A DNA stretch of 64,000 bases from Aquabacterium sp. Its GTDB lineage: Bacteria > Pseudomonadota > Gammaproteobacteria > Burkholderiales > Burkholderiaceae_C. The stretch is taken from assembly GCF_029946005.1 (NCBI RefSeq), contig NZ_JAQSDR010000033.1, positions 62,001 through 126,000 of the forward strand. The letters run 5' to 3'. Position numbers and translations under genes: made by a program. How positions within the stretch are numbered: position 1 is the first letter of the stretch; each line of letters begins with the position of its first letter. The notes beneath the pieces were generated by a model that saw only the letters and a list, made by a program, of their open reading frames with translations, was not told the origin of the DNA and made no database searches. Positions 28,532-61,727 of the stretch are shown piece after piece.

Positions 28532-28864
28532 ATGGGGCTCGAGGTCGCGTTTCGGTCAATAGAGTTGCGTTCCACGTGTGAGAGTCCCACGAGGGCCAAG
28601 CGTGAGCTTGGGGAGAGTGCCGCTGCGGTCTTGCGTAGGTATCTTGCCGATCTGGAAGCCGTTGAAACGGTCGCAGAGCTGGTGGAGATGGGGCTGGAGT
28701 TTGAGAGTTGCGGGTTGAAGGTGGGACTGATACGTTTTGGACTCAGTGAACGGCAATACCTCTACTGCGAAGTGAACCATCAGAATGTCCCGATGAGCGG
28801 CGAAGCCGTCGATTGGGCTAAGGTTTCAAGACTGAAGGTCATCCATATTGGAGGCAACCTGTGA
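28532..28864 (+). CDS. RelE/HigB-like toxin
   Basis: 110 residues, size and layout of HigB/RelE mRNA interferases: VAFRSIELRSTCES start, a helix with RAKRELGESAAAVLRRYLADLEA, then strands ending KVIHIGGN. Overlaps the next gene by four bases, the toxin-first order of hig systems. The ribosome site is weak. Confidence 0.75.
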   Translation: MGLEVAFRSIELRSTCESPTRAKRELGESAAAVLRRYLADLEAVETVAELVEMGLEFESCGLKVGLIRFGLSERQYLYCEVNHQNVPMSGEAVDWAKVSRLKVIHIGGNL

Positions 28865-29937
28865 CGCGCTCCACCGAATTCTTCCCAGCATGGGCATCTC
28901 CTCCGGGTGAGACCGTGCGACAGCTTGCAGCCAAGAAGAACCTGCAATCCATCGACTTGGCGCGGGCGCTTGGGGTTCCCTTAAAAGACCTTTCGCAACT
29001 TCTCAACGGAGAGTTGCCCATCACGGTTACCCGTGCCAAGAGCCTAGCCGGCGTGGTTGGGGCCAGCGAGCGTTTCTGGCTGGCGCGAGAGGCTCAGTAC
29101 AGGCGCGATGTTAAGGCACTGCAAGATGACGGCAAGCAGTGGGTATCAAGCCTTCCCTTTGCAGATATGACGCGGTATGGGTGGCTGAAGGCAGTGACTT
29201 CGACGGGCGAAAAACTCCGGCAGGCGCTGGAATTTTTCGAGGTCAGTACTGTCGATGAGTGGCGCGATAGATGGCTTTCGGACCAAGCCGGCATAACGGC
29301 TTATCGTACGTCGCCCGTCTTTACGGCGCAGTCGGCATCGGTCGCCACGTGGCTTAGACAGGGAGAGCTGGCGGCGGCCGGGTTGTCGGTGGGCACTTGG
29401 TCGCGTGAATGCTTTGAACGCTTGCTGCCATCGTTGAAATCGCTGACCCGTCTTCACAAGCCTGCTGAGTTCATTCCACAGTTGCAGGAGCAGTGTGCTG
29501 CCTGCGGCGTCGCTGTTGTAATTGTTCGCGCGCCAAAGGGATGTCCCACGAGCGGCGCGACTCGCGTCAAGAACGGCAAGGCGATCTTGCAGCTCAGCGT
29601 TCGCTACCTGCGTGACGACAACTTCTGGTTTACCTTTTTCCACGAAGCCGGTCATCTGGTGCTTCATGAAGACCGGTTGTTTCTCGAGTGGTCCGAACGG
29701 CGTGAGCTCGATAGCTACGAGGAGGAGGAAGCGAATAAGTTTGCTGGCCAGTTACTTATCCCGTCGTCAGAAGAAGCGGCCTTGCGGGCGTTGCCCCATG
29801 AGCATCGAAGTATCATGAGGTTCGCAAAGAACTTGTCCATTTCGCCCGGCATCGTGGTCGGGCAACTTCAGCACCGTGGGTTAGTGCGTCAGGACAAGCT
29901 GAATTTCCTTAAGAAACGGTACTCCTGGGCCGAGTAG
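28861..29937 (+). CDS. HigA-like antitoxin fused to ImmA/IrrE metallopeptidase
   Basis: 358 residues, GTG start inside the toxin stop. N-terminal XRE helix-turn-helix (SIDLARALGVPLKDLSQLLNG), central helical part, then an M78 peptidase domain with zinc motif HEAGHLVLH at about 261-269 and a downstream EEEANKFAGQLLIPS segment. Such proteins serve as antitoxin and repressor and may be self-cleaving. Codon use and GC are lower than in flanking nif DNA, a sign of transfer. Confidence 0.85.
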   Translation: MTRSTEFFPAWASPPGETVRQLAAKKNLQSIDLARALGVPLKDLSQLLNGELPITVTRAKSLAGVVGASERFWLAREAQYRRDVKALQDDGKQWVSSLPFADMTRYGWLKAVTSTGEKLRQALEFFEVSTVDEWRDRWLSDQAGITAYRTSPVFTAQSASVATWLRQGELAAAGLSVGTWSRECFERLLPSLKSLTRLHKPAEFIPQLQEQCAACGVAVVIVRAPKGCPTSGATRVKNGKAILQLSVRYLRDDNFWFTFFHEAGHLVLHEDRLFLEWSERRELDSYEEEEANKFAGQLLIPSSEEAALRALPHEHRSIMRFAKNLSISPGIVVGQLQHRGLVRQDKLNFLKKRYSWAE

Positions 29938-29939
29938 GT

Positions 29940-30860
29940 CTAACCGCGGAAAGGCAGGTAGAGATTAGGGCTCTTTTGCCAGTTGCACATGGCGTCTTCC
30001 ATGACTTGCATGCCGACCCCGAGACTCTGCTCGAGCGTGGCCACACGTGCCTCCAAGACGCGGGCTCCGGTCTTCGAGTCGATCTGGCCATCAAATAGCA
30101 GCCTGGCGCCGCGCTTCGGCCCGGTTGCCGCGTTCATGTATGTCGAATCCGCTTCGATGTTGGCGAGCCCAGCCTTGCTAAGCATGGTGAGGTAGTCGAA
30201 GCGGCCCGTGCGGCCAAAGCGCCGCACCGCGTTCATTTGTTGATAAAGCAAACCGAAGGCGCGACGGGCATTCCCGTTGGCTTGCGCCTGTGCCTGTGCA
30301 ATCATTGCCGCGTGTGAGCCAAAAGCGGTTATCCAGGCGACGTAGCTACGAACGATGGCGCCCGTCCCTTTGGGACCCGGCTTGAGTGACTCGTACTTGC
30401 GGTGATTACCAAATTTGCCAACGAAGGTCCCGTGGTGATCCTCGACCCAGTCGGCATAGGACTGTGGATCGTCTAGGACCCGCGCCCAGGTCCATGGCAC
30501 CGCTTCTGAGGCACCATAGAGTTCAGCAGCAAGCCGCCACTCAGTTCTAAGGTTCCGGCCGCAGTGGGTGGCCAGGAAGACGAGCCAGCAGGCCTCCTCC
30601 GCCTGTTCCGCAGAGATGGCCACGGCTGCCCTGATGGGGTCGAAGAATGGGCTCTGCGGATTGGCACGTGACGCGCTGATGGGGCGGGTGCGAACGGTCT
30701 GTACATATGACACTCGCTGAATGCTGTCGATGAGTTGCCAGACGAAGGCAAGCATGTTCTCGGGAGGCACAATCCCGGGAAGCGGCATGTTGTGCCGGTG
30801 GAAGTCGAGGAGTTGGGCCTCCAGAGCCAATGCCCGTTGTTCCTTTTCGTACGCGTTCAT
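29940..30860 (-). CDS. Alpha-glutamyl/putrescinyl-thymine pyrophosphorylase-like protein (clade 3)
   Basis: 306 residues, soluble and helical. Family-like segments are GKFGNHRKYESLKPG, RRFGRTGRFDYLTML, ATGPKRGARLLFDG and the end VGMQVMEDAMCNWQKSP. These recall the bacterial protein family placed by comparative genomics among enzymes of hypermodified thymine synthesis; no biochemical proof is known to me. Its stop lies two bases from the end of the opposing antitoxin gene and its start overlaps the thymidylate-synthase-like gene by four bases, so the two act together. Confidence 0.6.
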   Translation of the reverse strand: MNAYEKEQRALALEAQLLDFHRHNMPLPGIVPPENMLAFVWQLIDSIQRVSYVQTVRTRPISASRANPQSPFFDPIRAAVAISAEQAEEACWLVFLATHCGRNLRTEWRLAAELYGASEAVPWTWARVLDDPQSYADWVEDHHGTFVGKFGNHRKYESLKPGPKGTGAIVRSYVAWITAFGSHAAMIAQAQAQANGNARRAFGLLYQQMNAVRRFGRTGRFDYLTMLSKAGLANIEADSTYMNAATGPKRGARLLFDGQIDSKTGARVLEARVATLEQSLGVGMQVMEDAMCNWQKSPNLYLPFRG

Positions 30861-48799: not shown

Positions 48800-50587
48800 T
48801 TAGCCTGGCTTGTGAACCAGCTTGGACAGTTCAACCAGGCCAATCGGTGGGCGGATCAACCAGGGCACGGTGAAGATCCGCTTGGCCAGGCCGGCGGACA
48901 TGCGTTCCAGCTGCTGGCGCTCACCCGCCAGGCGCGCGGCCAGCAAGGGGTCGTGGGTGCCTGCTGCCAGCACGCTCTTGTTGAGTACCCAGGCATGAGG
49001 CTCGATGCCCGCGCGGCGCAGATCGTCTTGCAAGGCCGAGGCCTGCGACACCGGGGTTGCCTCGGGCAAGGTCACCAGGATGATCTTGGTGTAGGCCGTG
49101 TCTTGCAGCCGCATCAAGGGCGTGATCACATGGCTGGTGCCCCGACCTTCGAACTCCCGCGTCATCTGCCGGTGGTAAGCCCCGGTGGCGTCCATCAGCA
49201 GCAGGGAGTGCCCGGTGGGCGCCGTGTCCAGCACGACGAAGGCGCTGCGCGCTTCGCTGACGGTGCGTGAGAAAGCATGAAAGACGGCGACTTCCTCCGT
49301 GCAGGGAGAGCGAAGATCTTCCAGCAACAGGGCCTGTTCCTGCGCGTCGAGCTGGGGTGACTTGGCCGCCATGATCTTGTCGATGTAGCGCTGAGTTTCG
49401 ACCTTGGGGTCGATGCGGTCCACGCGCAAACCGGCCACCTCGCCTGCGAGGGTGCCCGTCAGGTGGGCCGCAGGATCGGTGGTGCTCAGGTGCACCGTCT
49501 TGCCCCGCTGGACCAGACCCAAGGCCAACGCCGCAGCCACCGTGGTTTTGCCGACCCCGCCTTTGCCCATGACCATGATCAGGCCATGCGGGCTGGCGGC
49601 CAGTTCATCGGCCAAGGCGTCCAGGCCCTGCAGGGGCGCGGTGGGCTGGGCAGGCTCGGCGCGTTTTGCCACGGCGATGCCCGCCTTGATCACGGCATCC
49701 TCCGGTGAGAGCAGGGCGCGCAAGGCGGGCAGGCCGACGGTGTCGAAGGCCCGCAGGGGCACTTGGTCCTGAGGCAGGGCGCGCAGTGAGGTTGGCATGT
49801 CCGCCAGTGCCTGCTGCTCCAGGGCTTCGATGGCGGTGGCCACCAGGTCGGTGTGGTCGCTGGCATGGAACACCCCGTTGATGGCCAGGCGTTGGTTGTT
49901 CAGGCCCAGTTCGCGCAGCTCTTGCGATGTGCGAGCCGCCTCGGCGATGGCGCCTTTGTCGGCCCGCGTGACCAGGACCACGGTGGTCCGGCTTGGATCG
50001 CTCAGGGCGTCGAGGGCGGCCTTGAAGCGCGCTTCCTGCATCTTCAGGCCGGAATGCGGTCCCAGGCAGGAGGCCCCTCGGTCGTTGCCGCTCAGGAAGC
50101 CACCCCAGGCTTTGGGCAGGCTGAGCAGGCGCAAGGTGTGCCCCGTGGGTGCCGTGTCAAACACGATGTGGTCAAAGTGTGGGGCGCCGTCCGAGAAGAG
50201 GGCAGCGAATTCATCGAACGAGGCGATCTCGGTGGTACAGGCCCCGGACAGCTGTTCGCGCACAGTGGCGAGTTCAGCAGGGCTGGCGCTGGCGTCCATT
50301 TGAGCGATGACACGCTGGCGGTAGGCTTGCGCCGCGTTGTCGGGGTCGATGTTCAAGACCGACAAACCCGGCGCACCAGGCACGGGTGTGGGGGTGTTGC
50401 GCAACTCGATGCCCAGCATGTCGTCGAGGTTCGACGCGGCGTCGGTGCTGACCAGCAGAACGCGTTGGCCCGAGTCTGCCAAGGCCAGTGCCGTGGCAGT
50501 GGCCAGTGACGTCTTGCCGACGCCACCCTTGCCGGTGAAGAGCACGTGGCGAGTGGTGTGGTTCAAAAAGCCAGGGGCTTGTTTCAT
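48800..50587 (-). CDS. arsA: ArsA-type arsenite-stimulated ATPase, two-domain
   Basis: 595 residues. Two P-loops: GKGGVGKTS near the N-terminus and GKGGVGKTT in the second half; both DTAPTGH signature segments. The three metalloid-binding cysteines of E. coli ArsA have counterparts in SGACTTEIASFDEF, GASCLGPHSG and SPCTEEVAVFHAF. No arsB, arsD or arsR is nearby. Orientation follows the nifB operon, with about 117 bases between, so read-through is possible. Confidence 0.92.
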   Translation of the reverse strand: MKQAPGFLNHTTRHVLFTGKGGVGKTSLATATALALADSGQRVLLVSTDAASNLDDMLGIELRNTPTPVPGAPGLSVLNIDPDNAAQAYRQRVIAQMDASASPAELATVREQLSGACTTEIASFDEFAALFSDGAPHFDHIVFDTAPTGHTLRLLSLPKAWGGFLSGNDRGASCLGPHSGLKMQEARFKAALDALSDPSRTTVVLVTRADKGAIAEAARTSQELRELGLNNQRLAINGVFHASDHTDLVATAIEALEQQALADMPTSLRALPQDQVPLRAFDTVGLPALRALLSPEDAVIKAGIAVAKRAEPAQPTAPLQGLDALADELAASPHGLIMVMGKGGVGKTTVAAALALGLVQRGKTVHLSTTDPAAHLTGTLAGEVAGLRVDRIDPKVETQRYIDKIMAAKSPQLDAQEQALLLEDLRSPCTEEVAVFHAFSRTVSEARSAFVVLDTAPTGHSLLLMDATGAYHRQMTREFEGRGTSHVITPLMRLQDTAYTKIILVTLPEATPVSQASALQDDLRRAGIEPHAWVLNKSVLAAGTHDPLLAARLAGERQQLERMSAGLAKRIFTVPWLIRPPIGLVELSKLVHKPG

Positions 50588-50704: not shown

Positions 50705-50821
50705 TCAATGACTGGCCACCGCAGGCACCGTGCGAAACCAGCCTGGCTGCTGCTGTTTGTAGACCCTCAGCCACATCAGGGTGGCGTCGTTGATGGTTTT
50801 GAGCAGGGCTGCGCCGTACAT
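50705..50821 (-). CDS. Small ORF, 38 residues
   Basis: Reads MYGAALLKTINDATLMWLRV, then Lys/Gln-rich and WFRTVPAVASH. AAGGAG lies nine bases before the ATG, and the ORF starts 17 bases after the amine oxidase stop. One amphipathic helix is likely. No family known. Good ribosome site and spacing make it a real candidate for translation. Confidence 0.55.
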   Translation of the reverse strand: MYGAALLKTINDATLMWLRVYKQQQPGWFRTVPAVASH

Positions 50822-50838
50822 GAGGGGTGCTCCTTCTT

Positions 50839-52416
50839 TCAAGGGGACGGCCCGCTGCGTGAGCACAGCAGGTCATTGGTGGCCCAGGCAAACTCGCGCC
50901 AGGCGGCGGCCAGGTCCACCGTGATGGCCTGGAGGTAGTCGGCATCGGGCCGGTGTTCCGTGTCGAAATTGGACAGGGCGCAGGAACTGGCATTGAAGGC
51001 CAGGGCGTCATTCACCAGGCTTTTGCTGAAGCCGCTGAAGGGCGCCAGGACCTGCGGTGTCAGCTCGCTGCGGCCCGTGGGTGTCAATGGGCGGTTCACG
51101 CCCCAGCCCAGCTCCAAGGCGGCCAGTTGCTCCAGGGCTCGGGTGTAGGTTTGCTCCGCCGTGGCCAGCATGGCGCGCTGAGTGACGCGGTCACGGTCCT
51201 GGCGGGCCAGCATCTGGTTCAAATGCTGCCGGTAGCGAGGCACCGCGTCCTGGCGTTCCAAGGTGACCCACAGCTCGAACGATGCAAGCGATTCTTCCAG
51301 TGGTCTGGTGGTGCCGTGGCGCGTGGGCTTGGCGTGGCGCAAAAAGTCAGCCAAGCGAGCGGCTGATTCGAGGGCGCCTTCCATGTGGCCGACGGCATGG
51401 CGCGCGGTCTCGGTGCCGCCAAAGAACAGGCGGCCTGACCAGTGCGGGCGCCGCAGCACGGGGTCGGCCTGCGGAGGCAGGGGCTCGGGGTCGAGGCGGT
51501 CCAGTTCGCTGCACGTCCAGGCGTCCAGGCTCCAGTCGTTCACCAACACCAAGTCTGCATGCGCTTCGGGGCCGAACAGTTGGGCGAACTGGCTGGAGGC
51601 GAGCAAGGGCAGGCTGCGCTCAAAAGGCCGCCGGGTGTCTGGGCCCATGGCGCAAAAGCCAGCCAGTGCCGCGCCTTGTTCATCGCTCGCATCCCAGACT
51701 TCGCGCAGCACGGCTTGAGGGTGGCTGACAAAGGCACTGCCCGACTGACCTTGCGCATGCCAGAAGGGGCGATCGAATCGGGCCACCGCCTTGGCTTCGC
51801 GCGCCATCCAGGTCGGCACGCTGGCCAAGGCATGGGCCGTGGAGGCCGACAGCGCTGGCTGAAATCGCACCGACTGGGCCAGCAGGCGGGGCGGGAGGGT
51901 CAGGACGACGCGCCGCGCCGTCACCCGTTCAACATGCTGGACGCCACTCTCCACGCGGGCAAAGTGCAACTCGACGTGGTCTGGGGCATCGTGCACGGCC
52001 ACCAACCGATGGCCCAGCTTGACCGTGCCTTCCAGCAGCCGCCCATGCAATGACCGCGTCAGCGTGCCCATGCCGCCCGAGAGGCGGCGCGCACCGCCAT
52101 GGATGCCTTGCACGTCCAGCACGTCGGGCGCGCGAGCCGGGTCGACCAGCGACAGCACGTGGCCCTGGTCCGGCTGCACGAAGGACTTCAGGGCCAGGGA
52201 CTCGACCAGCGCAGCCATGCGTGGCTCGGTGTCGGGCCAGTACCAGCTGGCACCCAGGTCCACGTGGGCACCTGGGCCCTGCGGGACGTGGGTGAGGATG
52301 CGCCCGCCCACGCGGTCTCGCGCCTCGAACACGGCCAGCTTGACGCCCTGGGCTTGCAATGAATGCGCCAGGGCCAGCCCCGTGAGGCCCGCGCCGATAA
52401 CCGCGACGTCGATCAT
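50839..52416 (-). CDS. FAD-dependent amine oxidase-like protein
   Basis: 525 residues. Rossmann motif VAVIGAGLTGLALAHSL and EARDRVGGRI at the N-terminus; the C-terminal GRLFFGGTETA is the FAD motif of monoamine oxidases. About 150 extra residues after that form a helical domain of unknown kind. Cytoplasmic. In the nifB operon after a [2Fe-2S] ferredoxin, which could be its redox partner. Substrate unknown. Confidence 0.85.
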   Translation of the reverse strand: MIDVAVIGAGLTGLALAHSLQAQGVKLAVFEARDRVGGRILTHVPQGPGAHVDLGASWYWPDTEPRMAALVESLALKSFVQPDQGHVLSLVDPARAPDVLDVQGIHGGARRLSGGMGTLTRSLHGRLLEGTVKLGHRLVAVHDAPDHVELHFARVESGVQHVERVTARRVVLTLPPRLLAQSVRFQPALSASTAHALASVPTWMAREAKAVARFDRPFWHAQGQSGSAFVSHPQAVLREVWDASDEQGAALAGFCAMGPDTRRPFERSLPLLASSQFAQLFGPEAHADLVLVNDWSLDAWTCSELDRLDPEPLPPQADPVLRRPHWSGRLFFGGTETARHAVGHMEGALESAARLADFLRHAKPTRHGTTRPLEESLASFELWVTLERQDAVPRYRQHLNQMLARQDRDRVTQRAMLATAEQTYTRALEQLAALELGWGVNRPLTPTGRSELTPQVLAPFSGFSKSLVNDALAFNASSCALSNFDTEHRPDADYLQAITVDLAAAWREFAWATNDLLCSRSGPSP

Positions 52417-52438
52417 GGCGGTCGCCTCCACGGGCTGG

Positions 52439-52735
52439 TCAAACGAAGCTGAGCAGTTCGATGGTCACGGGCTCTTCGCCGAGCGTGGTCTGACAGGCCA
52501 GGCGCGACTTGGAGCTGACGCCGATGATGGCGTCCAGGGCTTCGTTTTCCTTGCGTTGCACTTTGGACAGGCTCTTGCGGCCTTCCTGCACATACAGGTG
52601 GCAGGCGCCGCATTCGGCCTTGCCGCCGCACTTGCTGATGATGGCGGCGCCCGCGTCCTTGATAGCTTGCAGCAGGGTGGTGCCTGCAGGGGCGTCGAAG
52701 GTGATGCCGGCGGGCAGGATGGTCAGCGTGGTCAT
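52439..52735 (-). CDS. [2Fe-2S] ferredoxin in nifB operon
   Basis: 98 residues. Ligands Cys36, Cys42, Cys45 (SKCGGKAECGACHL) and Cys81 (RLACQTTL). Plant/xanthine-type fold. Lies between the SIR2-like and amine oxidase genes; a dedicated electron carrier for one of them or for nitrogenase is possible. Confidence 0.88.
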   Translation of the reverse strand: MTTLTILPAGITFDAPAGTTLLQAIKDAGAAIISKCGGKAECGACHLYVQEGRKSLSKVQRKENEALDAIIGVSSKSRLACQTTLGEEPVTIELLSFV

Positions 52736-52772
52736 GTCGTTTCTCCAGTTTGCAAAAGGTCAGGGATGGCCC

Positions 52773-53630
52773 TCAGGCCGCGGTCAACAACGCCGCCACC
52801 TCGGCCAGGGGTTGGGCGATGCGGGTGACGTTGTTCTCTTCCAGGAAGCGCGCTTCCATGCGCGTGGGCTCGTCGGGCAAGACGGCCCAGTGCTGGCCGC
52901 TGGAGCGCTTCATGATCTGGCGGGCAAAGCTGCGTGTGAGCTGGTCGTTGAAGCGGCAACCCAGGAAAAGGAAGCCGCGCCCGGTGCGCAGTTGCTGCAC
53001 CTCGGCCGGGATGGGCGTCTGGATGTCGATCTCGGTCAGCACTTCCACATAGTCCGAGTCGGACACCAGGTAGTTGCCAGCGGGCGCGTGTCCACCGATC
53101 GGCCGGTAGACGAGTGACTTCCAGCCGGACGGACAGCTCTCGGCCAGTTGCCCCAGCGCATCGTAGAACGCCGTCCAGGTGCCGAAGTGCTCGGACTGCG
53201 CCAGGCCTTGCACCTGGCCCCAATCGGCGGCAGGGTGCGTTTGCGCATAGGCCATGGTCATGGTGTCGTCGTACCAACTCTCTACCACCAGCGGTGGCGC
53301 CACCTTGGCCAGCCACAGGTGAAAGGCGCTGGGGGTGGCGGGCCGGGCAAAGGCCTCGTTCATCAGGCTGACCACGCTCTTGCGGTGCTTGAAGTTTTCA
53401 ATGAACTGCGCGGCCTGGGTCAGGCGGTTGCGGATTCTGTGGGGCACCGTGGCCTTGGCCACCAGCAGCGCCACCAGGGCCTCCGGGGTGGCGGGCACGG
53501 GGGCGTCGGGAATCAGCTCCAGCATGCGCGGGCCCAGGTAGGGCACGATGCGGCCCTTCTTGAGGCCATCGCTCAGCTCGGTGAGCCAAGGGGGGGCGGT
53601 CACAGCCACGGGGGCGTCGGTCAGGGTCAT
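52773..53630 (-). CDS. SIR2-like domain protein, nif-linked
   Basis: 285 residues. N-terminal RIVPYLGPRML and C-terminal FLFLGCRFNDQLTRSFAR match the SIR2-like (NAD-binding) fold used in several nucleotide-processing proteins. Classical sirtuin zinc cysteines are absent. The ATG at 53630 has GGAG six bases upstream. Role in nif unknown; NAD hydrolase or an NAD-dependent modification is a guess. Confidence 0.75.
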   Translation of the reverse strand: MTLTDAPVAVTAPPWLTELSDGLKKGRIVPYLGPRMLELIPDAPVPATPEALVALLVAKATVPHRIRNRLTQAAQFIENFKHRKSVVSLMNEAFARPATPSAFHLWLAKVAPPLVVESWYDDTMTMAYAQTHPAADWGQVQGLAQSEHFGTWTAFYDALGQLAESCPSGWKSLVYRPIGGHAPAGNYLVSDSDYVEVLTEIDIQTPIPAEVQQLRTGRGFLFLGCRFNDQLTRSFARQIMKRSSGQHWAVLPDEPTRMEARFLEENNVTRIAQPLAEVAALLTAA

Positions 53631-53647
53631 GTTCAACTCCAATGAGG

Positions 53648-54802
53648 TCAGTAGATGGCGGCCCCGGCCCCGACGTTGACCGAGGCGTCCTTGAGCGTCT
53701 TGACGATGTAGCTGACTTCGTCTTCGTCCAGGTGGGTGTGAAAGGGCAGGGTGAGGGATCGGTCGCCGATGCGCTCGGTGTTGGGCAGGAGCCCGCGGTG
53801 CCAGCCCAGTTGCTGGTAGTGAAACTGCTGGTGCAGTGGCACGCAGTAGATGGCCGACTGGACCGAGTTCGAGTCCATGTCTTCAATGATCTGGTTGCGC
53901 GCGCTGCCGGTGAAGCGCTTGCCCAGGTGGATCTTGTAGAGCATCCAGTGGACCTCGTCGATGTGCTCGGCCAGGTAGGGCGGCTTGATGCCTTCGAAGC
54001 TTTGCATCTGCGTGTGGTACCAGCCTTCGACCTGTTTGCGCTTGAGCAGGATCTCGTCAATGCGCTGCAATTGCGCCAGGCCCAGGGCGGCATCCAGGTC
54101 GCTCATGCTGGCCTGCCAGGGCACGCGGCTGCCCACCGACACCGAGTTGCGATCACTCAAGCGGCGCTCGCGCAGGTAACCCAGTTCACTGGCCAGGGCG
54201 GGGTCATCGGTCAGCACCATGCCACCTTGGCCGCAGCACAAGGCCGAGGGTTGTGAGAAATCAAAGATCGACACGTCGCCGAAGCCGCCCACCAGGCGGC
54301 CCTGGTAGCGCGAGCCCACCGCTTCGGTGCTGTCTTCGATCAGCTTGAGCTGGTGCCGGGTGGCCAGTTCGCGCAAGGCCTGCCAGTCAGCAGGGTGGCC
54401 GTTGACGTTGGTGGCCAGGATGGCGCGGGTGCGCGGCCCGACCTTGTCAGCGGCCTTGGCCGGGTCAATGCAGCCTGACCAGTAGTCGATGTCAGCCAAC
54501 ACCGGCGTGGCACCCACCAGCGAGATGGCATGCGCAACCTGGTGCCAGGCATAGGCGGCAGTGATGACTTCATCACCGGGGCCAATGCCCATGACCTTGA
54601 GGGCCAGACAGACGCCCAGGGTGCCACTGCCCACGGCGGCGCCATGCGATCGGCCCACCCATTGGGCAAAGGCGTTTTCAAATTCACTGACCGCAGGCCC
54701 GGCCGACAGCTGGCCGCTGCGCAACGCCATGACCACGGCTTCCAGTTCCTGGCCGGTGATGTCGGGGTCGGACAGGGCGATCCAGTCGTAAGGGGCATGC
54801 AT
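53648..54802 (-). CDS. DegT/DnrJ-family protein lacking the PLP lysine
   Basis: 384 residues, aspartate-aminotransferase fold of the DegT family: SDPDITGQELEAVVMALRSGQLS start, substrate loop, Asp157 in LIEDSTEAVGS (pyridine nitrogen contact), and PFHTHLDEDEV at the end. The position of the catalytic lysine reads FDFSQPSALCCGQGGM, giving Ser186. Without Lys (or the His of ColD) ordinary transamination is not expected. Perhaps a binding or scaffold protein, or another PLP reaction. Between a small nif gene and the SIR2-like gene. Confidence 0.85.
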   Translation of the reverse strand: MHAPYDWIALSDPDITGQELEAVVMALRSGQLSAGPAVSEFENAFAQWVGRSHGAAVGSGTLGVCLALKVMGIGPGDEVITAAYAWHQVAHAISLVGATPVLADIDYWSGCIDPAKAADKVGPRTRAILATNVNGHPADWQALRELATRHQLKLIEDSTEAVGSRYQGRLVGGFGDVSIFDFSQPSALCCGQGGMVLTDDPALASELGYLRERRLSDRNSVSVGSRVPWQASMSDLDAALGLAQLQRIDEILLKRKQVEGWYHTQMQSFEGIKPPYLAEHIDEVHWMLYKIHLGKRFTGSARNQIIEDMDSNSVQSAIYCVPLHQQFHYQQLGWHRGLLPNTERIGDRSLTLPFHTHLDEDEVSYIVKTLKDASVNVGAGAAIY

Positions 54803-54818: not shown

Positions 54819-55079
54819 TCAGTCTTGTGTGAGCACAAAGGCGGACGCGCGCTCGAGCTGGCCCGTCACCGACCAGCAATGGCCGTCGGTGGCCATCAAG
54901 AAGAGCGCGCGGTTCTGCACCTGCAGCGCGGGTGATTCACTGCGCATGTCGAAGGCGTCCAGCACCAGGGCGGGCAAGGGGGCAAAGCGTTCCCGGATGA
55001 GCGCTGCGGCCGCGCGCACCGTGGCAGACGAGCCCAGGATCTGCCCAGCCTCTTCGATTTGATCAAGCGTGATGGCCAT
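54819..55079 (-). CDS. Small nif operon protein, 86 residues
   Basis: Starts MAITLDQIEEAGQILG; the second half has ALFLMATDGHCWSVTGQLERASAFVLTQ. The pattern resembles small DUF6129-type proteins I associate with nif clusters, but I hold that loosely. Follows nifT by 10 bases. Function unknown. Confidence 0.65.
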   Translation of the reverse strand: MAITLDQIEEAGQILGSSATVRAAAALIRERFAPLPALVLDAFDMRSESPALQVQNRALFLMATDGHCWSVTGQLERASAFVLTQD

Positions 55080-55089
55080 GGTGGGCGCC

Positions 55090-55311
55090 TCAGGCTTCTT
55101 CGCCGGTCGTGGTGCGGCGCGCTTCCACGGTGATCGGCAAGGTGGTGCCCTCGGGCATCTCGGGCATGGCCAGCTGCCAACCGTTGGCCAGCGTGACCAG
55201 GCCGCCCCACATGCCGGGGCGTTCCATCGACACGATGGGTTCCTCCAGGTCTTTCTTGGGCACGTACACCGATGTGACACCGTTGGGCGCCGTGCGAATC
55301 ATGATCTTCAT
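55090..55311 (-). CDS. nifT: Nitrogen fixation protein NifT
   Basis: 73 residues. MKIMIRTAPNGVTSVYVPKKDLEEPIV is the NifT/FixT pattern. Function unknown despite wide conservation. Start overlaps the nifS stop by four bases. Confidence 0.95.
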   Translation of the reverse strand: MKIMIRTAPNGVTSVYVPKKDLEEPIVSMERPGMWGGLVTLANGWQLAMPEMPEGTTLPITVEARRTTTGEEA

Positions 55312-56507
55312 GCGAATGCTCCTGAGGGGAATGCGGGGTGGCCTGCGGCAGCGGCGTGCTCGGCCATCAGTGGGGCCAGTTCGGCGGGCAGGCGATCAAG
55401 CACCATCTGGATCTGCTCTGAGGTGGTTTGTGTTGACAAGGAAAATCGGATGGCGCACAAGGCCTCTTCGCGCGGCACCCCCATGGCGCTCAGCACGAAG
55501 GAGGGCTCGTTGCCGCTGGCGGAGCAGGCCGCCCCGGACGAGGCCATGATCCCGAGGCGTTCCAGGCGTTGAAGGACCACGTCGGCGTGCAGGTGGCCAA
55601 AGCGCAGGTAGCTGGTGTTGGGCAGGCGGGCGGCCTCGCCGCCAAAGACCACGGTGCCGGGCAAGCGGCTGATGAGCCCTCGTTCGAGTTGGTCCCGCAG
55701 GCGTGTTTGCGAAGCCATGTGGTGGAACCAGGCCTGCGGCGCCATGGTCAGGCGTTCGGTGGCCGCCGCCAGGCCCAGGATGCCGGGCAGATTCTCGGTG
55801 CCGCCGCGCCTGGCGCGTTCCTGCGAGCCTTGGTACAGGGGCGGCCAGTTCAAACCTTGGCGCACGATCAGGACGCCGATCCCCTTGGGGCCGTTGAACT
55901 TGTGTGCCGACAAGGACACCAGGTCGGCCCCGGATTGGTCGAAGTCAAAGGGCAGCTTGCCAATCAATTGGGTGGCATCGACGTGCAGCATGGCGCCTTG
56001 TGCGTGGGCCAGCCGGGCCATCTCGCCAATCGGCATCAACACGCCGGTTTCATGGTTGGCCGCCATGACGGACACCAGCGCCACGTGCGGCGTGACCAGC
56101 TCGCGCGCCTGAGCCATGTCCAACGTGCCTTGGGGCGTCAGCCCGATCCAGCCCAGATCCACTTGCTGACGCTGAGCCAGGTGCCGGGCCAGCTTCTGCA
56201 TGCCCGCGTGCTCGGCCGCACTGAGGACCAGGCCATGCCGACCATTGAAGCCCACCGCGCCGCGCAAGGCGATGTGGTTGGACTCGGTGGCGCCGCTGGT
56301 GAACACCACTTCAGCAGGCTTGCACCCCAGCATGCGCGCCACCTGCGAGCGGGCCTGCGTCAAGGCCTGCCGGGCCTCCTGGCCCATGGCGTGAGTCGAT
56401 GAGGGATTGGCCCAATGCCTGACCATGCCTTGTGCCACCGCGCCCATCACGTCCGCCGTCGGGGCCGTGGTGGCGTTGTTGTCCAGGTAGATGCGGTCGG
56501 TGTTCAT
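55308..56507 (-). CDS. nifS: Cysteine desulfurase NifS
   Basis: 399 residues. PLP lysine in SLSAHKFNGPKGIGVLI; catalytic Cys loop SSGAACSASGNEPSFVL, shorter than in IscS. A second desulfurase besides iscS, specific to nif by position. The ATG at 56507 gives the family start; it overlaps the upstream gene by four bases. Confidence 0.95.
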   Translation of the reverse strand: MNTDRIYLDNNATTAPTADVMGAVAQGMVRHWANPSSTHAMGQEARQALTQARSQVARMLGCKPAEVVFTSGATESNHIALRGAVGFNGRHGLVLSAAEHAGMQKLARHLAQRQQVDLGWIGLTPQGTLDMAQARELVTPHVALVSVMAANHETGVLMPIGEMARLAHAQGAMLHVDATQLIGKLPFDFDQSGADLVSLSAHKFNGPKGIGVLIVRQGLNWPPLYQGSQERARRGGTENLPGILGLAAATERLTMAPQAWFHHMASQTRLRDQLERGLISRLPGTVVFGGEAARLPNTSYLRFGHLHADVVLQRLERLGIMASSGAACSASGNEPSFVLSAMGVPREEALCAIRFSLSTQTTSEQIQMVLDRLPAELAPLMAEHAAAAGHPAFPSGAFA

Positions 56508-56857
56508 GGCCAAAACACCCGGGTCGGGTCCAGGCAGACCTCGTCCAGCAGCGGCTGGAGGTGGTGGCACTCGTCATGCAATACCCAGCGGTCATGCACA
56601 TGGTCGCGAAAGTAAAGGGACCACATGCCTTCGGCGGGTTCCAGCCAGGCGATCGAGATCACGCCACCAGAAGGGTCGATGTTGCGCGAGCAGCAGGGGC
56701 TGCTGACCACCCAGCCTGGCGCGGTCGACGCCCGCTCCACCTGGGGCTGCACATAGCGATAGCGCACCCGCTGCCGCAAGGCGCGCTCGATGCGCACGCG
56801 GTCCATGTCATGGACCACGGCCTGCATGAGGGGCAGGGGGGCGGCCAGGGTGTTCAT
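56504..56857 (-). CDS. nif operon hypothetical protein rich in Trp and Cys
   Basis: 117 residues. Segments RVRYRYVQPQV, VVSSPCCSRNIDPSGGVISIAWLEP and WVLHDECHHLQ, ending DPTRVFWP. Four cysteines, including a CC pair, and several Trp/His could bind metal or a cluster. I do not recognise the family with certainty. Coupled on both sides to nifZ-like and nifS genes. Confidence 0.72.
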   Translation of the reverse strand: MNTLAAPLPLMQAVVHDMDRVRIERALRQRVRYRYVQPQVERASTAPGWVVSSPCCSRNIDPSGGVISIAWLEPAEGMWSLYFRDHVHDRWVLHDECHHLQPLLDEVCLDPTRVFWP

Positions 56858-56870
56858 GGAGGCCTGCTCG

Positions 56871-57167
56871 TCAGCCGTGCAACAGGCGCAACTGGCCGCG
56901 GGATTCCGACAGCATCTGATCCAACTCTTGGAGCAGCAGGATCTCTTCTTCCAGACACCCGACAACCAGGCCGTCGAACTCGACCATGTAAACCGGCTGG
57001 TTGGCCTCGACATGCCGTCCCACCTGAACGATCTCGCCTTCGCTGCCCACGCAGGCCAGGACCGCGTCTGGCGCATGGCCGGGGTGGGTGCCATCGTTGA
57101 CCAGGTCGACCAGCGCGACCACTTGTTGTCCCCATTGGTATTGGGGCTCACGGAGTTCGATCATCAT
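56871..57167 (-). CDS. NifZ-like protein, second copy
   Basis: 98 residues. EPQYQWGQQVVALVDLVNDGTHPG and PVYMVEFDGLVVGCLEEEI follow the NifZ domain pattern, but more divergent than the neighbouring copy. The ATG at 57167 has GAGG six bases upstream; an ATG at 57179 overlaps the nifZ stop. Probably a duplicated NifZ with its own partner. Confidence 0.8.
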   Translation of the reverse strand: MMIELREPQYQWGQQVVALVDLVNDGTHPGHAPDAVLACVGSEGEIVQVGRHVEANQPVYMVEFDGLVVGCLEEEILLLQELDQMLSESRGQLRLLHG

Positions 57168-57175
57168 GGTGGACC

Positions 57176-57511
57176 TCATCTCAGTTGTTTGAGTTCATCA
57201 GCGCGTTCACCCAACTGGGCCAACACCTCATCGGGCAGCTTGTCCAACGTCATCAGTTCCTTGGCGCGCATGCCGACGCGGTAGCCGTGGTCGGTGAACT
57301 CCACGGCGTAGATGTAGAACTGCTGCAGGAAGGTGCCGATGGAGCACACGTAGCCGACATCGCCTTTGCGCACCAGCACCTCACCAATGTCCTTGCCATT
57401 GAAGGTGCCGTCGTTGCGGATGATGGTGCGGCTGACCACGCGCTCGCCAAAGCCGAAGCGCGGCGGATCGGCCACTTCAATCAGGTTGTCGTCGCGGTTG
57501 ATGTCAGCCAT
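57176..57511 (-). CDS. nifZ: Nitrogenase maturation protein NifZ
   Basis: 111 residues. The NifZ core is plain: PRFGFGERVVSRTIIRNDGTF, DIGEVLVRKGDVGYV and FLQQFYIYAVEFTDHGYRVG. NifZ is needed for the second P-cluster of MoFe protein. Overlaps the LRV gene by eight bases. Confidence 0.95.
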   Translation of the reverse strand: MADINRDDNLIEVADPPRFGFGERVVSRTIIRNDGTFNGKDIGEVLVRKGDVGYVCSIGTFLQQFYIYAVEFTDHGYRVGMRAKELMTLDKLPDEVLAQLGERADELKQLR

Positions 57512-58292
57512 GCTGCGCTCCTAGTGAGGTGGCTGTGCGCTCAGGCATCAGGCGCTGACGGGCCACGGTGCGGATGTCGTCGTCGTGATCCTTGATCATC
57601 AAAATGAGCAGGGCCCGGTCAGCCCGTTGCGCAACTTCCCAGCGCACCATCAGGTCGGGGTCGTGCGCCAGGCTGCTGAGCAGCGGCACCGGCAGGCGCC
57701 GGGCCACGATGCGGCGCACTTCGCTGGCCTGGTCGTCGGCCATGCGCTGCAGGGCGGGCATCTCCAGGCGCAGCGCCACTTCCTGGCGCACGTCGCTTTG
57801 CGCGTCGTTCATCATTGACAGCAGGAGCGCCTGGGGCAGGCGCCGCGCCACCAACTGCCGAACGTAGTAGTCCGGGTCTTGCCGCATGGAGGACAGGGCG
57901 CGCACGTCCAGGCGGTGAGCCACGCGGATGCGCACTTCCCGATGCGGGTCGTCGCGCAGCGTCATCAAAGCGCGTTGCGGCAGGCGCAGGGCCAGTTGCA
58001 GGCGCACGGTTTCGTCCGGGTCGTGGATCAGGTCGGTCAGGCGAAACACATCGGCGTAGCGAACAGCGATGGCGCGCACCTCAAAGTAAGGGTGGCTCAG
58101 CAACTCGTTGGCCAGCTGCGGGTTCCAGTTGAAGAAGCGGTCGATGCGCCGGGCATAGCGGTCTTGAACGCAGGCGCGGCCGGGCTCGCACCGGCCCTGT
58201 GCCAGCAGGCTCTGGTAGTGGCATGACTGGCAAGCCACGGGCAGGCCTTGCCAGTCCACTGATTCGATCTCGTTCGACGCCAGATTCATCAT
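57504..58292 (-). CDS. Leucine-rich-repeat-variant (LRV) [4Fe-4S] protein
   Basis: 262 residues. Four cysteines near the N-terminus (21, 24, 35, 41) for a [4Fe-4S] cluster, then about eight repeats of some 24 residues with the pattern DPD..VR..VA.RLP...L..M, as in the Azotobacter LRV protein encoded in its nif region. Superhelical; function unknown, perhaps protein binding in nitrogenase maturation. ATG ATG start overlaps the TPR gene. Confidence 0.88.
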   Translation of the reverse strand: MMNLASNEIESVDWQGLPVACQSCHYQSLLAQGRCEPGRACVQDRYARRIDRFFNWNPQLANELLSHPYFEVRAIAVRYADVFRLTDLIHDPDETVRLQLALRLPQRALMTLRDDPHREVRIRVAHRLDVRALSSMRQDPDYYVRQLVARRLPQALLLSMMNDAQSDVRQEVALRLEMPALQRMADDQASEVRRIVARRLPVPLLSSLAHDPDLMVRWEVAQRADRALLILMIKDHDDDIRTVARQRLMPERTATSLGAQHG

Positions 58293-58837
58293 GGCGTGCT
58301 CCAGCCCCGGTGCGCGATGGGGGCGCTGAAGTCGTCGTCGCTCAGGTCCAGCGCCTCGGCGCGGGCCAGCACGTGGGTCAGCACACCACCGCCCACCCGG
58401 TCCTGAGGATCGAGTTGGCGCAGGTCCGCCAAGGTGTTGCGCGCGGTGTCGGTATCGCCCAGGCGCAAGCTCAGGTAGGCAAAGGCTTTGAGCGCGAACA
58501 GGTAAAAGCGGGTGGCCGCGTCGAAGCGGGCTTGTTCATCATTGATGTTGATGTCCGGTCCCAAGGCGGAGCGCGCGATGCTCAGGGATTCCTGGGCCAC
58601 CAGCCGGGCCTCCTTCAGACGGTGTCCATAGAAGTGAAAGCGGTACATCGCGATCAGCGTGGCCGGGTGCGAGGGTGCCAGCTCGCGCGCCTTCTGCAGC
58701 AAGGGCTCGGCCTGGGCGCGGTCACCGCGGACCAGCCCGGCTTGCTTGATCAGGCCCTCTACTTCAGCGGGCAAGCCACCCCCCAACACGGCGCTGTCAA
58801 AGCCGGCGTCGTGCTGGGATGAGGGGTGGTGGTGCAT
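58289..58837 (-). CDS. TPR-like protein in nifB operon
   Basis: 182 residues, helical, with TPR-like pairs (AEPLLQKARELAPSHPATLIAMYRF and RFYLFALKAFAYLSLRLGDT). Likely paralogue of the protein at 34792-35280. His-rich first residues. Function unknown. Confidence 0.78.
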   Translation of the reverse strand: MHHHPSSQHDAGFDSAVLGGGLPAEVEGLIKQAGLVRGDRAQAEPLLQKARELAPSHPATLIAMYRFHFYGHRLKEARLVAQESLSIARSALGPDININDEQARFDAATRFYLFALKAFAYLSLRLGDTDTARNTLADLRQLDPQDRVGGGVLTHVLARAEALDLSDDDFSAPIAHRGWSTP

Positions 58838-58854: not shown

Positions 58855-59271
58855 TCAGTTCACGGGACGAGGCATGGAAGAACGGATCGAGCTGATCTCG
58901 ATCTTGGCCACCGCGGGGGGCGCGGCCGCGCTGTTGTCGGCGCTGCTCTCACTGCTGCTGCAGCCACAGGCCCCAGCGTTCGGGTTGAAGAAGGTCAAGC
59001 CCGATTGGGTGGGCGTGTCGGCAAAGTCCACGGTGACACCGTCCAGCATCAGGCGGCTTTGCGCTGGCAGGAACACCGTCACGCCGTTGATGTCAAAGGC
59101 TTTGTCGCCGTCCAGCGGGGCCGCTTCCACGGTGAACTCGCTGCTGTAGCCGGAGCAGCCGCCGGGGCTCACCGTGAGGCGAAAGCCCGCAGTGGCGGGC
59201 AGGCCCGAGAACTTCACCATCCGCTTGATGAAGCGTTCAGCGGCCTGGGTCACGGTCATGTTGATGGTCAT
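58855..59271 (-). CDS. iscA: nif-specific A-type Fe-S carrier (HesB/IscA)
   Basis: 138 residues. GGCSGYSSEF and GACGCSSSES contain the three cysteines. It has a long Ser/Ala C-terminal tail not seen in housekeeping IscA. AAAGGA ribosome site before the ATG at 59271. Third A-type carrier of the window. Confidence 0.9.
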   Translation of the reverse strand: MTINMTVTQAAERFIKRMVKFSGLPATAGFRLTVSPGGCSGYSSEFTVEAAPLDGDKAFDINGVTVFLPAQSRLMLDGVTVDFADTPTQSGLTFFNPNAGACGCSSSESSADNSAAAPPAVAKIEISSIRSSMPRPVN

Positions 59272-59282
59272 GTCTTTCCTTT

Positions 59283-59477
59283 TCAAGCATTCACGATGCA
59301 GCCATCCACCGGGCACACGGCCAGGCATTGGGGCGCATCAAATTGGTCTTCGCATTCCGTGCACTTGGCCGGATCGATGATGAAGGTCCCGCCCTTTTCG
59401 CGGATGGCGACGTTGGGGCATTCGGGTTCGCAGGCGGAGCAGCCTGTGCAGGTGGAGGCGATGATCTTCAAGGCCAT
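59283..59477 (-). CDS. fdxN: 2[4Fe-4S] ferredoxin FdxN
   Basis: 64 residues. [12 protein letters not shown] and [18 protein letters not shown], the alvin-type arrangement with an eight-residue insert. Known in other diazotrophs as electron donor for NifB-co synthesis. 39 bases after nifB. Confidence 0.93.
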
Positions 59478-59516: not shown

Positions 59517-61097
59517 TCAGGCCGCCGCTTCAGAGGTGTAAGCCCCCTGGCGGATGGAGGCATCGCCCCGTGGCTGATGGGTGATGTCGCCTCGTGCCAG
59601 CCGGTCGGCATAGTCGGCAAACCAGCTCAGGGCGGCTTTCTCGATGAACTCGTGGGCGTAGGCATCGACAGGCTCGATGCCCGCGGCCTTGAGCTCGTCA
59701 CGCGGGCAGGCGCCGATCTTGGCCACCAGCACGGCGTGGCAGTCATTGATGGCCTTGACGATGGACGGCAACTGCTCGTCTTCACCGAAGCCGCCCTGGC
59801 AGTACAGGTCCACACGGCGATGCCCCACGAACAGGGCCTCGGCGGCCGACACCTCAAAAATCTGGAACTCGGTGGCGTGGCCAAAGTGCAGGTTCACGCG
59901 GCCGTGTCCCTCGGTGGCCACGGCCACCAGCACCTTCATGTCAGGGTCGACACCTGCGCGCTCCACCTGGGCGCTCAGCGCCTCCTGCTTGGCGGCGTGC
60001 TGGGCCTGGCGCTCGGTTTCCACCTTGTCCTGGTAGTCCCGGCGCTTGTCCAGGTCGTACACGATTTCCATCTCTTCAATCTTGTCGAGCGTGAACTCCT
60101 CGCTGCGGTCTTCGCCCAGCAGGCCCACCGCATCAGCGCGGCATTGCCTGCAATGCCGCATCAGGTTCGCGCCGCCCATGCAGGCGTCTTGCACGGCCTT
60201 GAGTTCTTGGGCGGTCGGGCCGCGTTGGCCAGTCAGGCCGAACACCGTGCCGTGCTCTGCCTCCGAGATCAGCGGCATGATGTTGTGCAGGAAGGCGCCG
60301 CGCTTCTTGACTTCGCGGTTCACTTCAATCAGGTGTTCGTCGTTGATGCCGGGGATCAGCACCGAGTTGATCTTGGTGAGCACGCCGCGCGCGGTCAGCA
60401 TTTCCAGGCCGAGCATCTGGCGTTCATGCAAGATCTTGGCGGCCTCGTAGCCGGTCACGCGCTTGTGCTGCCAGAAGATCCAGGGGTAGATCTTCTCCCC
60501 CACGGCCGGGTCCACCATGTTGATGGTGATGGTGACGTGGTCGATGTTGTATTGGCAGATCTCGTCGACCAGGTCGGGCAGGGCCAAGCCATTGGTCGAG
60601 ATGCACAGCTTGATGTCCGGTGCCGTTTCCTGCAGCATGCGGAAGGTGTCGAAGGTGTTCTTGGGATTGGCCAGCGAATCGCCAGGGCCCGCCACGCCAA
60701 GCACCGTCATCTGCGGGATTTCGCTGGCCACGGCCAGCACCTTCTTGACGGCCTGTTCAGGGGTCAGCTTTTGCGAGACCACGCCGGGGCGGGACTCGTT
60801 GCTGCAGTCGTATTTGCGGTTGCAGTAGTTGCACTGGATGTTGCACGCTGGCGCCACGGCCACGTGCATGCGGGCGTAGTGGTGGTGGGCTTCTTCTGAG
60901 TAGCAGGGGTGGTTCTTGACCTTGTCCCAAATCTCTTGCGGCATGTCGTCAGGCCCGCCAGATGATCCGCAGCTGGCCTTGCCTTCACCGCCCGTGGTGC
61001 CGCAGCCGCCCGAAGGGTCAGGCGTGATGGCGGCGCCCAAGGGGCGGATTTGACCGATGCCGATGAAGGCTTTCGTCGCGAGTTGCGGTGCGTCCAT
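59517..61097 (-). CDS. nifB: FeMo-co biosynthesis radical SAM protein NifB
   Basis: 526 residues. Radical SAM motif CNIQCNYC followed by NRKYDC; second-cluster cysteines in the C-terminal part of the radical SAM domain ([17 protein letters not shown]); a NifX-like domain from about 395. Forms the 8Fe core NifB-co. First gene of the nifB operon. The ATG at 61097 is chosen because the predicted transcription start (near 61133) excludes the ATG at 61160. Confidence 0.97.
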
Positions 61098-61144
61098 GTG
61101 GTGTTCCCCGTCCAAGAGTTGCGGCTCGTTGCCAAGCCTGCATT

Positions 61145-61159
61145 GCCAGTTCCGTGCCA
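61145..61159 (-). promoter_or_regulatory. Sigma-54 promoter of nifB operon
   Basis: Minus strand TGGCACGGAACTGGC. -24 half is perfect; at -12 it has TGGC in place of TTGC, with the essential GC kept at the right distance. Start near 61133. Confidence 0.85.
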
Positions 61160-61176
61160 CCTTGAAATCAATTGAA

Positions 61177-61254: not shown

Positions 61255-61270
61255 TGTCAGGTCCCTGACA
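61255..61270. promoter_or_regulatory. NifA site shared by nifB and nifQ
   Basis: TGTCAGGTCCCTGACA is a perfect TGT-N10-ACA with fully palindromic TGTCAGG/CCTGACA arms. Centred about 130 bases from the nifB start and 74 from the nifQ start. Confidence 0.85.
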
Positions 61271-61309
61271 AAGACGACACGTGGAGGCGTGCTGCGGGGG
61301 GCATGTGCA

Positions 61310-61324
61310 TGGCACAGCTCTTGC
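61310..61324 (+). promoter_or_regulatory. Sigma-54 promoter of nifQ
   Basis: TGGCACAGCTCTTGC matches TGGCAC-N5-TTGC without mismatch. Start near 61336, 38 bases before nifQ. Confidence 0.9.
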
Positions 61325-61373
61325 GCCGTGCCTGGCATGTCAGTGCACACCAGAGACGCAAGAGGACGCCACC

Positions 61374-61727
61374 ATGAACGACATGCTGCCCCCCAAGCTC
61401 GCGGCTCACGACGAGGTCGATGACCTGGTCGTGCTGCTGTTGGAGCATGCGACTCATCCGGGTGTGCTGGCCCGGCACCTGGCCCAGGCCGTGGCCGAAG
61501 CCTGCATGGGCCCCAAGCACCTTTGGGAGGACTTGGGGCTGGGCAACCGCGCGCAACTGGGCGCCTTGATGCAGGAGCACTTCACCTCATTGAAGGCACT
61601 CAACCACAAGGACATGCGCTGGAAGAAGTTCCTCTACCGCATGCTGTGCGAGCGGGCTGATGTGCTGATCTGCAAGTCGCCGCATTGCGAACAATGCGAA
61701 GACCAGCTGCTGTGCTTTGCCCCGTAG
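61374..61727 (+). CDS. nifQ: Short NifQ-family molybdenum protein
   Basis: 117 residues. Cysteines 100, 105, 108 and 114 give C-X4-C-X2-C-X5-C, the NifQ signature, after the MRWKKFLYRMLCE motif. NifQ carries Mo-Fe-S for FeMo-co. Shorter than the usual 160-200 residues: the N-terminal part is reduced. AGAGGA ribosome site before the ATG. The end nearly meets that of nifA on the other strand. Confidence 0.85.
   Translation: MNDMLPPKLAAHDEVDDLVVLLLEHATHPGVLARHLAQAVAEACMGPKHLWEDLGLGNRAQLGALMQEHFTSLKALNHKDMRWKKFLYRMLCERADVLICKSPHCEQCEDQLLCFAP

Follow-up and report, generated by a model that had tools for sequence, protein, structure and literature searches.

Nif-associated DegT-fold and SIR2-like proteins lacking known catalytic residues downstream of nifB in Aquabacterium sp.

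A 64,000-nucleotide stretch of Aquabacterium sp. DNA (positions 62,001 to 126,000 of contig NZ_JAQSDR010000033.1), analyzed here as a whole and referred to below as the window, contains genes for a DegT-fold protein, a SIR2-like protein, a [2Fe-2S] ferredoxin, a flavin amine-oxidase-like protein and a 38-codon open reading frame (ORF), all on the (-) strand downstream of nifB. What does such a module do beside nif genes? The original prediction for this locus proposed a short pathway for making or repairing a metabolite, or one that protects nitrogenase. We found that the DegT-fold and SIR2-like proteins lack the residues that known enzymes of these families need; therefore, they probably assist in the building or upkeep of nitrogenase without catalysis of their own. 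With moderate confidence, we interpret the module as a set of nif-dedicated pseudoenzymes that, with a carrier of electrons or clusters, takes part in the maturation or upkeep of nitrogenase.

The first gene of the module (53648..54802) codes for the nif-type DegT-fold protein, a predicted pseudo-transaminase of 384 amino acids (aa) (PF01041, 309.5 bits; cut-off 19.8). It is followed by genes for the nif-type SIR2-like protein (52773..53630, 285 aa; PF13289 (SIR2_2), 69.8 bits), the ferredoxin (52439..52735, 98 aa; PF00111, 46.3 bits) and a protein similar to flavin adenine dinucleotide (FAD)-dependent amine oxidases and extended by about 160 aa at the C terminus (50839..52416, 525 aa; PF01593, 144.6 bits), and then by the 38-codon ORF (50705..50821). 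The original prediction located these five same-strand ORFs correctly behind the nif genes, with short gaps of 17, 37, 22 and 17 bases, and the Pfam matches back the names it gave to the first four. Its description requires two corrections: an 85-codon gene (54819-55076) sits between nifT and degT, and the 38-codon ORF is what a deletion left of a longer gene (see below).

Active sites of the DegT-fold and SIR2-like proteins

We compared 92 nif-type DegT sequences with 20 ordinary DegT proteins from 19 of 61 genomes (the genome of the window and 60 relatives). The nif-type set contains duplicates (the window gene and some genomes are present twice), and sequences shorter than 80% of full length were dropped. 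Roles of the Lys, the Ser (Ser194, which binds phosphate) and the Asp were assigned as in the available part of the published description of Spr1654. At the position of the Lys that binds pyridoxal phosphate (PLP), which is Ser186 in the window protein, nif-type proteins contained Ser (68 sequences), Gly (14), Leu (7), Cys (2) or Gln (1), and neither Lys nor His was present; the controls had Lys in 19 cases and His in one. Five residues upstream, the phosphate-binding Ser, present in 20/20 controls, was replaced with Asp (D181) in 92/92 nif-type sequences. The Asp that binds N1 (D157) was kept in every sequence of both sets. The same active-site residues occurred in five further nif-type DegT proteins from a sample of the class; a sixth (L198) was too short to judge and was left out. 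The control with His at the PLP position, L145, is encoded in the same genome as the window (G000:C12:195600-197200).

A second feature of the nif-type proteins was a C-terminal tail consisting of GAG followed by IY, either at the very end or one residue earlier, which was present in 90 of the 92 sequences and in none of the controls (NVGAGAAIY in the window protein). The predicted structure of this protein had a predicted local distance difference test score (pLDDT) of 83.5 and was closest to GDP-perosamine synthase (3bn1), with a template modelling score of 0.88. Because residues 378-384 had pLDDT values below 50, the tail is conserved yet unplaced in the monomer model. GDP-perosamine synthase and ArnB, which are sugar transaminases of PF01041, share the fold with nif-type DegT proteins at 30-34% identity; however, they are ordinary members with both the PLP Lys and the phosphate Ser, and the nif-type proteins have neither. 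In addition, the window protein fell below the cut-offs of all curated NCBIfam equivalogs compared (PseC, ArnB and others), the best being PseC with 219.5 bits versus a cut-off of 423.5. As judged from sequence, the nif-type DegT proteins form a nif subfamily of their own. Among the openly licensed papers listed, partly judged by title and abstract, we found no report on a DegT gene of nif clusters or on its lost residues, and the available text of a paper on Azoarcus BH72 (PMC3916325) mentions no aminotransferase, nifT or SIR2.

The SIR2-like protein of the window contains the SIR2 domain (SIR2_2) and the corresponding fold. We examined 124 distinct SIR2-like sequences of at least 240 aa. The position of the catalytic Asn (TTNYD motif) is W119 in the window protein; it was occupied by Trp in 101 sequences and by Asn in 23. 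The position of the catalytic His (HG motif) is I178, and His was found in five sequences, none of which had the Asn. The two residues occurred together in 0/124 proteins. Two weak SIR2 relatives from genomes lacking nifD both kept the Asn, and one of them kept the His too. In model-based fold comparisons, the SIR2-like protein appeared most similar to the SIR2-type NADases ThsA, KomC and DSR2. In contrast to these enzymes, no nif protein keeps the Asn and His pair.

Association with nif genes

Occurrence of the module was assessed in the 61 genomes, in 398 genomes of the phylum and in 369 genomes of the class. In the latter two samples, the best candidates of a loose first pass were scored in each genome (six for SIR2 and four for DegT), and, because these were few, absences are less sure than presences. 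Among the 61 genomes, the SIR2-like protein was detected in 17, of which 16 had a nifD match (15 above the cut-off and a partial one in G028). In the phylum sample, it was present in 17 genomes, and nif genes were found in 17/17; nifD exceeded the cut-off in 15, and G128 and G311 had nifE-type or partial matches. The class sample yielded matches in 32 genomes, 28 of them strong (above 300 bits, own genome included) and all of these nif-positive: nifD was present in 27 (in G679 as two pieces below the cut-off), and in G525 nifH lay beside the SIR2-like gene. When stretches around the 28 strong genes were inspected, 24 contained nif genes.

Nif-type DegT was clearly separated from other members of its family. 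Full-length matches in 14 of the 61 genomes scored 641-729 bits, versus 232 bits for the best other DegT, and pieces with 287-331 bits were present in G018 and G028. In the latter genome (G028:C331:17241-18237), the gene is split into two overlapping matches, either an assembly error or a broken gene. Using a threshold chosen in this analysis (E<=1e-100), we detected nif-type DegT in six genomes of the phylum, all six being both SIR2- and nif-positive. In the 61-genome and phylum samples, it was always accompanied by the SIR2-like gene; the converse fails (e.g., G092, G182 and G222). The test of co-occurrence with nif genes suggested in the original prediction was positive for the SIR2-like protein (17/17 in the phylum and 28/28 strong matches in the class) and nif-type DegT (6/6).

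To describe gene order, 80 named loci were chosen by their SIR2 gene; these were the best 80 of at least 545 relatives among 594 candidate stretches. They contained degT (75 loci), nifT (74), the 85-codon gene (72), ferredoxin (70), nifB (67) and an oxidase homologue (33). The conservation of this gene set across the 80 loci argues against a chance grouping. Upstream of SIR2, where 73 loci had room, degT was the direct neighbor in 69, was separated by the ferredoxin gene in one and was absent in three; nifT lay within 2 kb in 71 of these loci. Offsets of 2-89 bases for degT in 31 loci stem from extrapolated gene ends and were counted as direct neighbors. Downstream, ferredoxin directly followed SIR2 in 66 of the 77 loci with room and was found elsewhere in one. 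In L125 and L126, degT-ferredoxin and nifT-SIR2 form separate units, and a DUF3024 homologue adjoins degT-ferredoxin in both. Among laboratory diazotrophs, Paraburkholderia xenovorans LB400 (L074) and Derxia gummosa (L028) have the module, and Hydrogenophaga pseudoflava (L040) has it together with the oxidase gene.

The nearest named relative was L020 (Aquabacterium sp. CECT 9606), whose SIR2-like protein is 95% identical to that of the window. Ratios of nonsynonymous to synonymous substitution rates (dN/dS) between these two genomes (NG86, one genome pair) were 0.009 for nifB, 0.051 for degT, 0.118 for SIR2, 0.122 for ferredoxin and 0.219 for oxidase. These values show that the module genes are maintained under purifying selection and are not decaying. 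Comparisons with L022 and L030 were set aside; the nifB row for L022 comprised 13 codons.

SIR2-like matches were found in 75 plasmid records, of which 55 were from Rhizobium; four records matched DegT at E<=1e-80, and annotation was read for two. Nif plasmids of Paraburkholderia aromaticivorans (pBN1) and Methylococcus sp. EFPC2 contain nifT, a small gene and DegT, plus SIR2 and [2Fe-2S] genes; in Methylococcus, DegT and SIR2 are separated by ferredoxin and one additional gene, and the SIR2-like gene is followed by one for BolA (L216, 10629-10898). Rhizobium etli CFN 42 plasmid p42d has the order nifA-nifB-4Fe4S-nifZ-nifT-SIR2, and its SIR2 protein (RHE_RS30545) is 49.1% identical to the window protein; however, no DegT, [2Fe-2S] or oxidase gene is annotated beside it. 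A second SIR2 clade, which includes L132-L136, was also linked to nif genes, with nifH in 14 of 23 fetched stretches and, in 13 of these, within approximately 4.3 kb of the SIR2-like gene.

Experimental data are available for several relatives, each cited here from the accessible portion of the source. In Rhodobacter capsulatus, the SIR2 family gene rcc03262 ends the operon nifB1-rcc03265-nifZT-rcc03262, and its product was marked NF in the nifA double mutant and is reported to depend on NifA (PMC6925177). Like the module, this operon has a SIR2 family gene after nifT; unlike it, the operon as listed has no DegT, and Rcc03262 is likened here by its description, not by a sequence comparison under that name. 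A SIR2-like protein after nifT is also given in a figure legend for a Rhodovulum nif operon. Zymomonas ZMO1821 was upregulated under N2 fixation (PMC8600466). In Pseudomonas stutzeri, PST1325, located beside nifH, was induced 9.68-fold with nif genes (PMC2820453, PMC11332353, PMC6053447), and a mutant, called non-polar by its authors, kept 23% of nitrogenase activity (PMC2820453). PST1325 was called 'SIR2 family' in a later paper than the mutant study; its place suggests the second SIR2 clade. Given nif co-occurrence and the operon and NifA data for R. capsulatus, the part of the original prediction that the module protects or serves nitrogenase is still tenable.

Other module genes, neighbors and promoter region

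The ferredoxin keeps its cluster cysteines (C36, C42, C45 and C81) in at least 97% of 85 sequences. Its closest solved chain is 3ah7, and with 67.4 bits it fell below the cut-off of the fdx_isc equivalog (132.1). The oxidase was more sporadic. A full-length form was present in nine of the 61 genomes, all nif-positive (in G036 on a contig other than that of the module), and in G030 and G035 the match covered residues 4-361 only. The 33 homologues in the best 80 loci comprised 26 at the module directly after ferredoxin and seven elsewhere. We therefore ruled out that the oxidase shares the fate of the core genes: it occurs in fewer genomes than the SIR2-like gene (9 versus 17 of 61) and in 33 of 80 loci, and its dN/dS was the highest.

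The 38-codon ORF is a deletion remnant. At the same place, L020 has a gene of 123 codons. The ORF of the window matches 13 residues at the start of this gene and 25 at its end, and the 85 codons between them are missing from the window in frame. Among 23 named loci that matched the ORF, 22 had the match within a longer ORF including the upstream part, and L059 had the C-terminal part only. Four longer homologues were compared with Pfam: one had a HepT-like match (PF01934) of 15.8 bits versus a gathering threshold of 23.5, and three matched no family; no Pfam family was assigned to the longer gene. The candidate of a conserved microprotein was ruled out by the alignment to the L020 gene.

From nifB (ORF 59517..61160), the genes on the (-) strand are a fdxN-like 4Fe-4S ferredoxin (59283..59477; a 4Fe-4S binding protein is annotated at the same place in L215), a HesB/IscA-like protein (58855..59274, start approximate), a tetratricopeptide repeat (TPR) protein (58289..58837; PF14559, 31.8 bits), an LRV Fe-S leucine-rich repeat protein (57504..58292; PF05484, 98.1 bits), two copies of nifZ (57176-57511 and 56871-57179; NifZ is annotated at the same places in L215 and L216), a DUF3024 protein (56504..56872; PF11225, 69.2 bits), a NifS-like cysteine desulfurase (55308..56507; annotated as cysteine desulfurase at the same place in L215) and nifT (55090..55311), which was assigned by sequence and position and is annotated at the same place in L215 and L216. 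The 85-codon gene comes next, ahead of the module. Its product (85 aa) has weak similarity to DUF6129 (Pfam E-value 0.061, below cut-off), and Cys67 is kept in at least 97% of 81 sequences. Directly after the module lies a gene for a two-domain ArsA-type ATPase (48800-50587, (-)), which is also downstream of the module in L020 and, with 718 bits, passes the threshold of 650 bits that NCBIfam sets for arsenical pump-driving ATPase.

A sigma-54 promoter common to nifB and the module is plausible. A -24/-12-like element, TGGCACGGAACTGGCA, is located at 61159-61144 on the (-) strand, 46 bases upstream of the ATG (61097) where nifB probably starts, and a NifA-type TGT-N10-ACA site (61255-61270, no strand assigned) lies between the divergent nifB and nifQ. 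Motif counts are no proof of this promoter: the window had eight TGT-N10-ACA sites versus 10.65 expected from shuffled sequences, and the -24/-12-like pattern was no commoner than in shuffles. Scans for sigma-70 promoters and terminators in the window gave matches at about the chance number. The GTG with which the listed nifB ORF begins overlaps with the promoter-like element; a start at the ATG (61097) is more likely. The nifQ gene (61281-61727, (+); PF04891, 149.8 bits) is on the strand opposite to nifB, with nifA on one side and nifB on the other, and a further -24/-12-like element is found there (61309-61325, (+)). Elsewhere in the window, two adjacent genes (29940-30860 (-) and 28861-29937 (+)) code for a homologue of alpha-glutamyl/putrescinyl thymine pyrophosphorylase clade 3 and for an IrrE-like peptidase; the former matched PF18746 with 313 bits, and the name of its family points to DNA hypermodification.

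Possible functions of the module

We propose that the module is an accessory part of a nitrogenase-maturation operon, built on two enzyme folds that would have been stripped of their chemistry. A SIR2-type NADase fold without its Asn and His pair and a DegT fold without its PLP Lys and phosphate anchor may both bind and not catalyze. The DegT-fold protein could serve as a scaffold, in which the rebuilt pocket and the flexible conserved C-terminal tail would hold a client or a partner during maturation of the MoFe protein or its cofactor. The ferredoxin might supply electrons or a cluster at this DegT-client step, and the SIR2-like protein may work alongside NifT and NifZ in an adapter or chaperone role. 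The flavin oxidase would then be a later addition in this lineage and the 38-codon ORF the remnant of another addition. A bolder version holds that nif-type DegT, with its rebuilt cofactor pocket, is an assembly factor for a metallocluster or the MoFe protein, working with the ferredoxin and the dead SIR2 fold in an unrecognized maturation step of Mo nitrogenase in many Proteobacteria; we offer it as a tentative and rather doubtful proposal.

Several observations weigh against this interpretation. With regard to occurrence, the SIR2-like gene was missing from 26 of 41 nifD genomes in the phylum sample, and the module is therefore dispensable for nitrogenase in general. Among the 61 genomes, the draft genome G018 had the SIR2-like gene and part of degT with no nifD match, G005 had a partial nifD (254 bits) without the SIR2-like gene or nif-type DegT, and G060 had nifD and a distant SIR2-like protein without nif-type DegT. 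Four weak SIR2 matches in the class sample (20-92 bits) came from genomes without nifD above the cut-off. With the queries used, no nif gene was detected in four of the 28 class stretches (L218, L219, L221 and L223) or in one of 15 phylum stretches (L134; the other 14 were positive), and ferredoxin was not beside SIR2 in 10 of the 77 loci with room. In the samples searched, the SIR2-like and DegT genes are restricted to nif-bearing genomes, with G018 and the four weak matches standing against this. As to function, a protein without the known catalytic residues could still have a different chemistry or bind a ligand non-covalently: going by the titles of 4oca and 3nys, PDB contains K-to-A mutants of the DegT fold with PLP. 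The literature search yielded no experiment on a DegT member. The PST1325 mutant, as described in the accessible text, is a plasmid integration directly beside nifH, and PST1325 is presumed to belong to the family on account of what it is called and of its location next to nifH, rather than of a sequence comparison.

Other explanations assign catalysis to one or more of these proteins. In the pathway envisaged by the original prediction, a PLP enzyme, a NAD enzyme and a flavin oxidase would cooperate with ferredoxin to make or repair a metabolite for nitrogenase. The oxidase is in line with this idea, as it keeps the glycines of the FAD motif and, at full length, is confined to nif-positive genomes among the 61. 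Because the two other presumed enzymes lack the catalytic residues of their families, we rejected the pathway as the main interpretation and regard it as improbable; in addition, the ORF is a remnant, and the oxidase is both rarer than the SIR2-like gene among the 61 genomes and found at the module in only 26 of the best 80 loci. It is also unlikely that DegT is a dehydratase of the E1/ColD type that depends on pyridoxamine phosphate, receives electrons from the adjacent ferredoxin and forms a small molecule. The N1-binding Asp is invariant, and DegT and ferredoxin adjoin even where SIR2 is elsewhere or further off (L125, L126 and L197). However, E1/ColD dehydratases have His in place of the transaminase Lys, and E1 has its own [2Fe-2S] cysteine set; in nif-type DegT, this position is never Lys or His and the phosphate Ser is Asp (both 92/92), and degT was found without ferredoxin in eight of the best 80 loci and in L131, L198, L199 and L200.

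For the SIR2-like protein, three roles other than that of an adapter or chaperone were considered. As a non-catalytic sensor partnered by DegT and ferredoxin, it might still bind a nucleotide (NAD(H), ADP-ribose or another one) and signal energy or redox status to nitrogenase or to nitrogenase regulators; this is conceivable, though we doubt it, since the Trp that replaces the pocket Asn in most of these proteins could fill the pocket. We regard it as very unlikely that the protein, like the proposed role of ZMO1821, is a deacetylase that depends on NAD and regulates how far nitrogenase or NifA is acetylated. In favor of this role, the authors of the ZMO1821 study predicted a deacetylase and report acetylated nitrogenase proteins (PMC8600466). 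We give hardly any weight to the idea that the protein is related to defense NADases and shields the nif region from phage. The similarity of the fold to ThsA, KomC and DSR2 speaks for it, and PADLOC reported a ThsA match, albeit a weak one, for L130 (E 3.5e-05) and none for the window protein; on the other hand, the catalytic pair is missing in all 124 proteins, the genes are linked to nif, and the R. capsulatus protein is reported to depend on NifA.

Moving nitrogen fixation into new hosts is held back by incomplete knowledge of the genes that, in addition to the textbook nif set, full nitrogenase activity requires. The SIR2-like gene is relevant here: it was nif-restricted in our samples, is NifA-dependent in one relative and, in another, seems to be required for the larger part of the activity. 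Current labels describe these proteins as enzymes, the SIR2-like protein having been taken for a deacetylase by one group and its DegT neighbor being annotated as an aminotransferase. If it is true that both are non-catalytic factors for assembly or upkeep of nitrogenase, the aminotransferase and deacetylase labels mislead.

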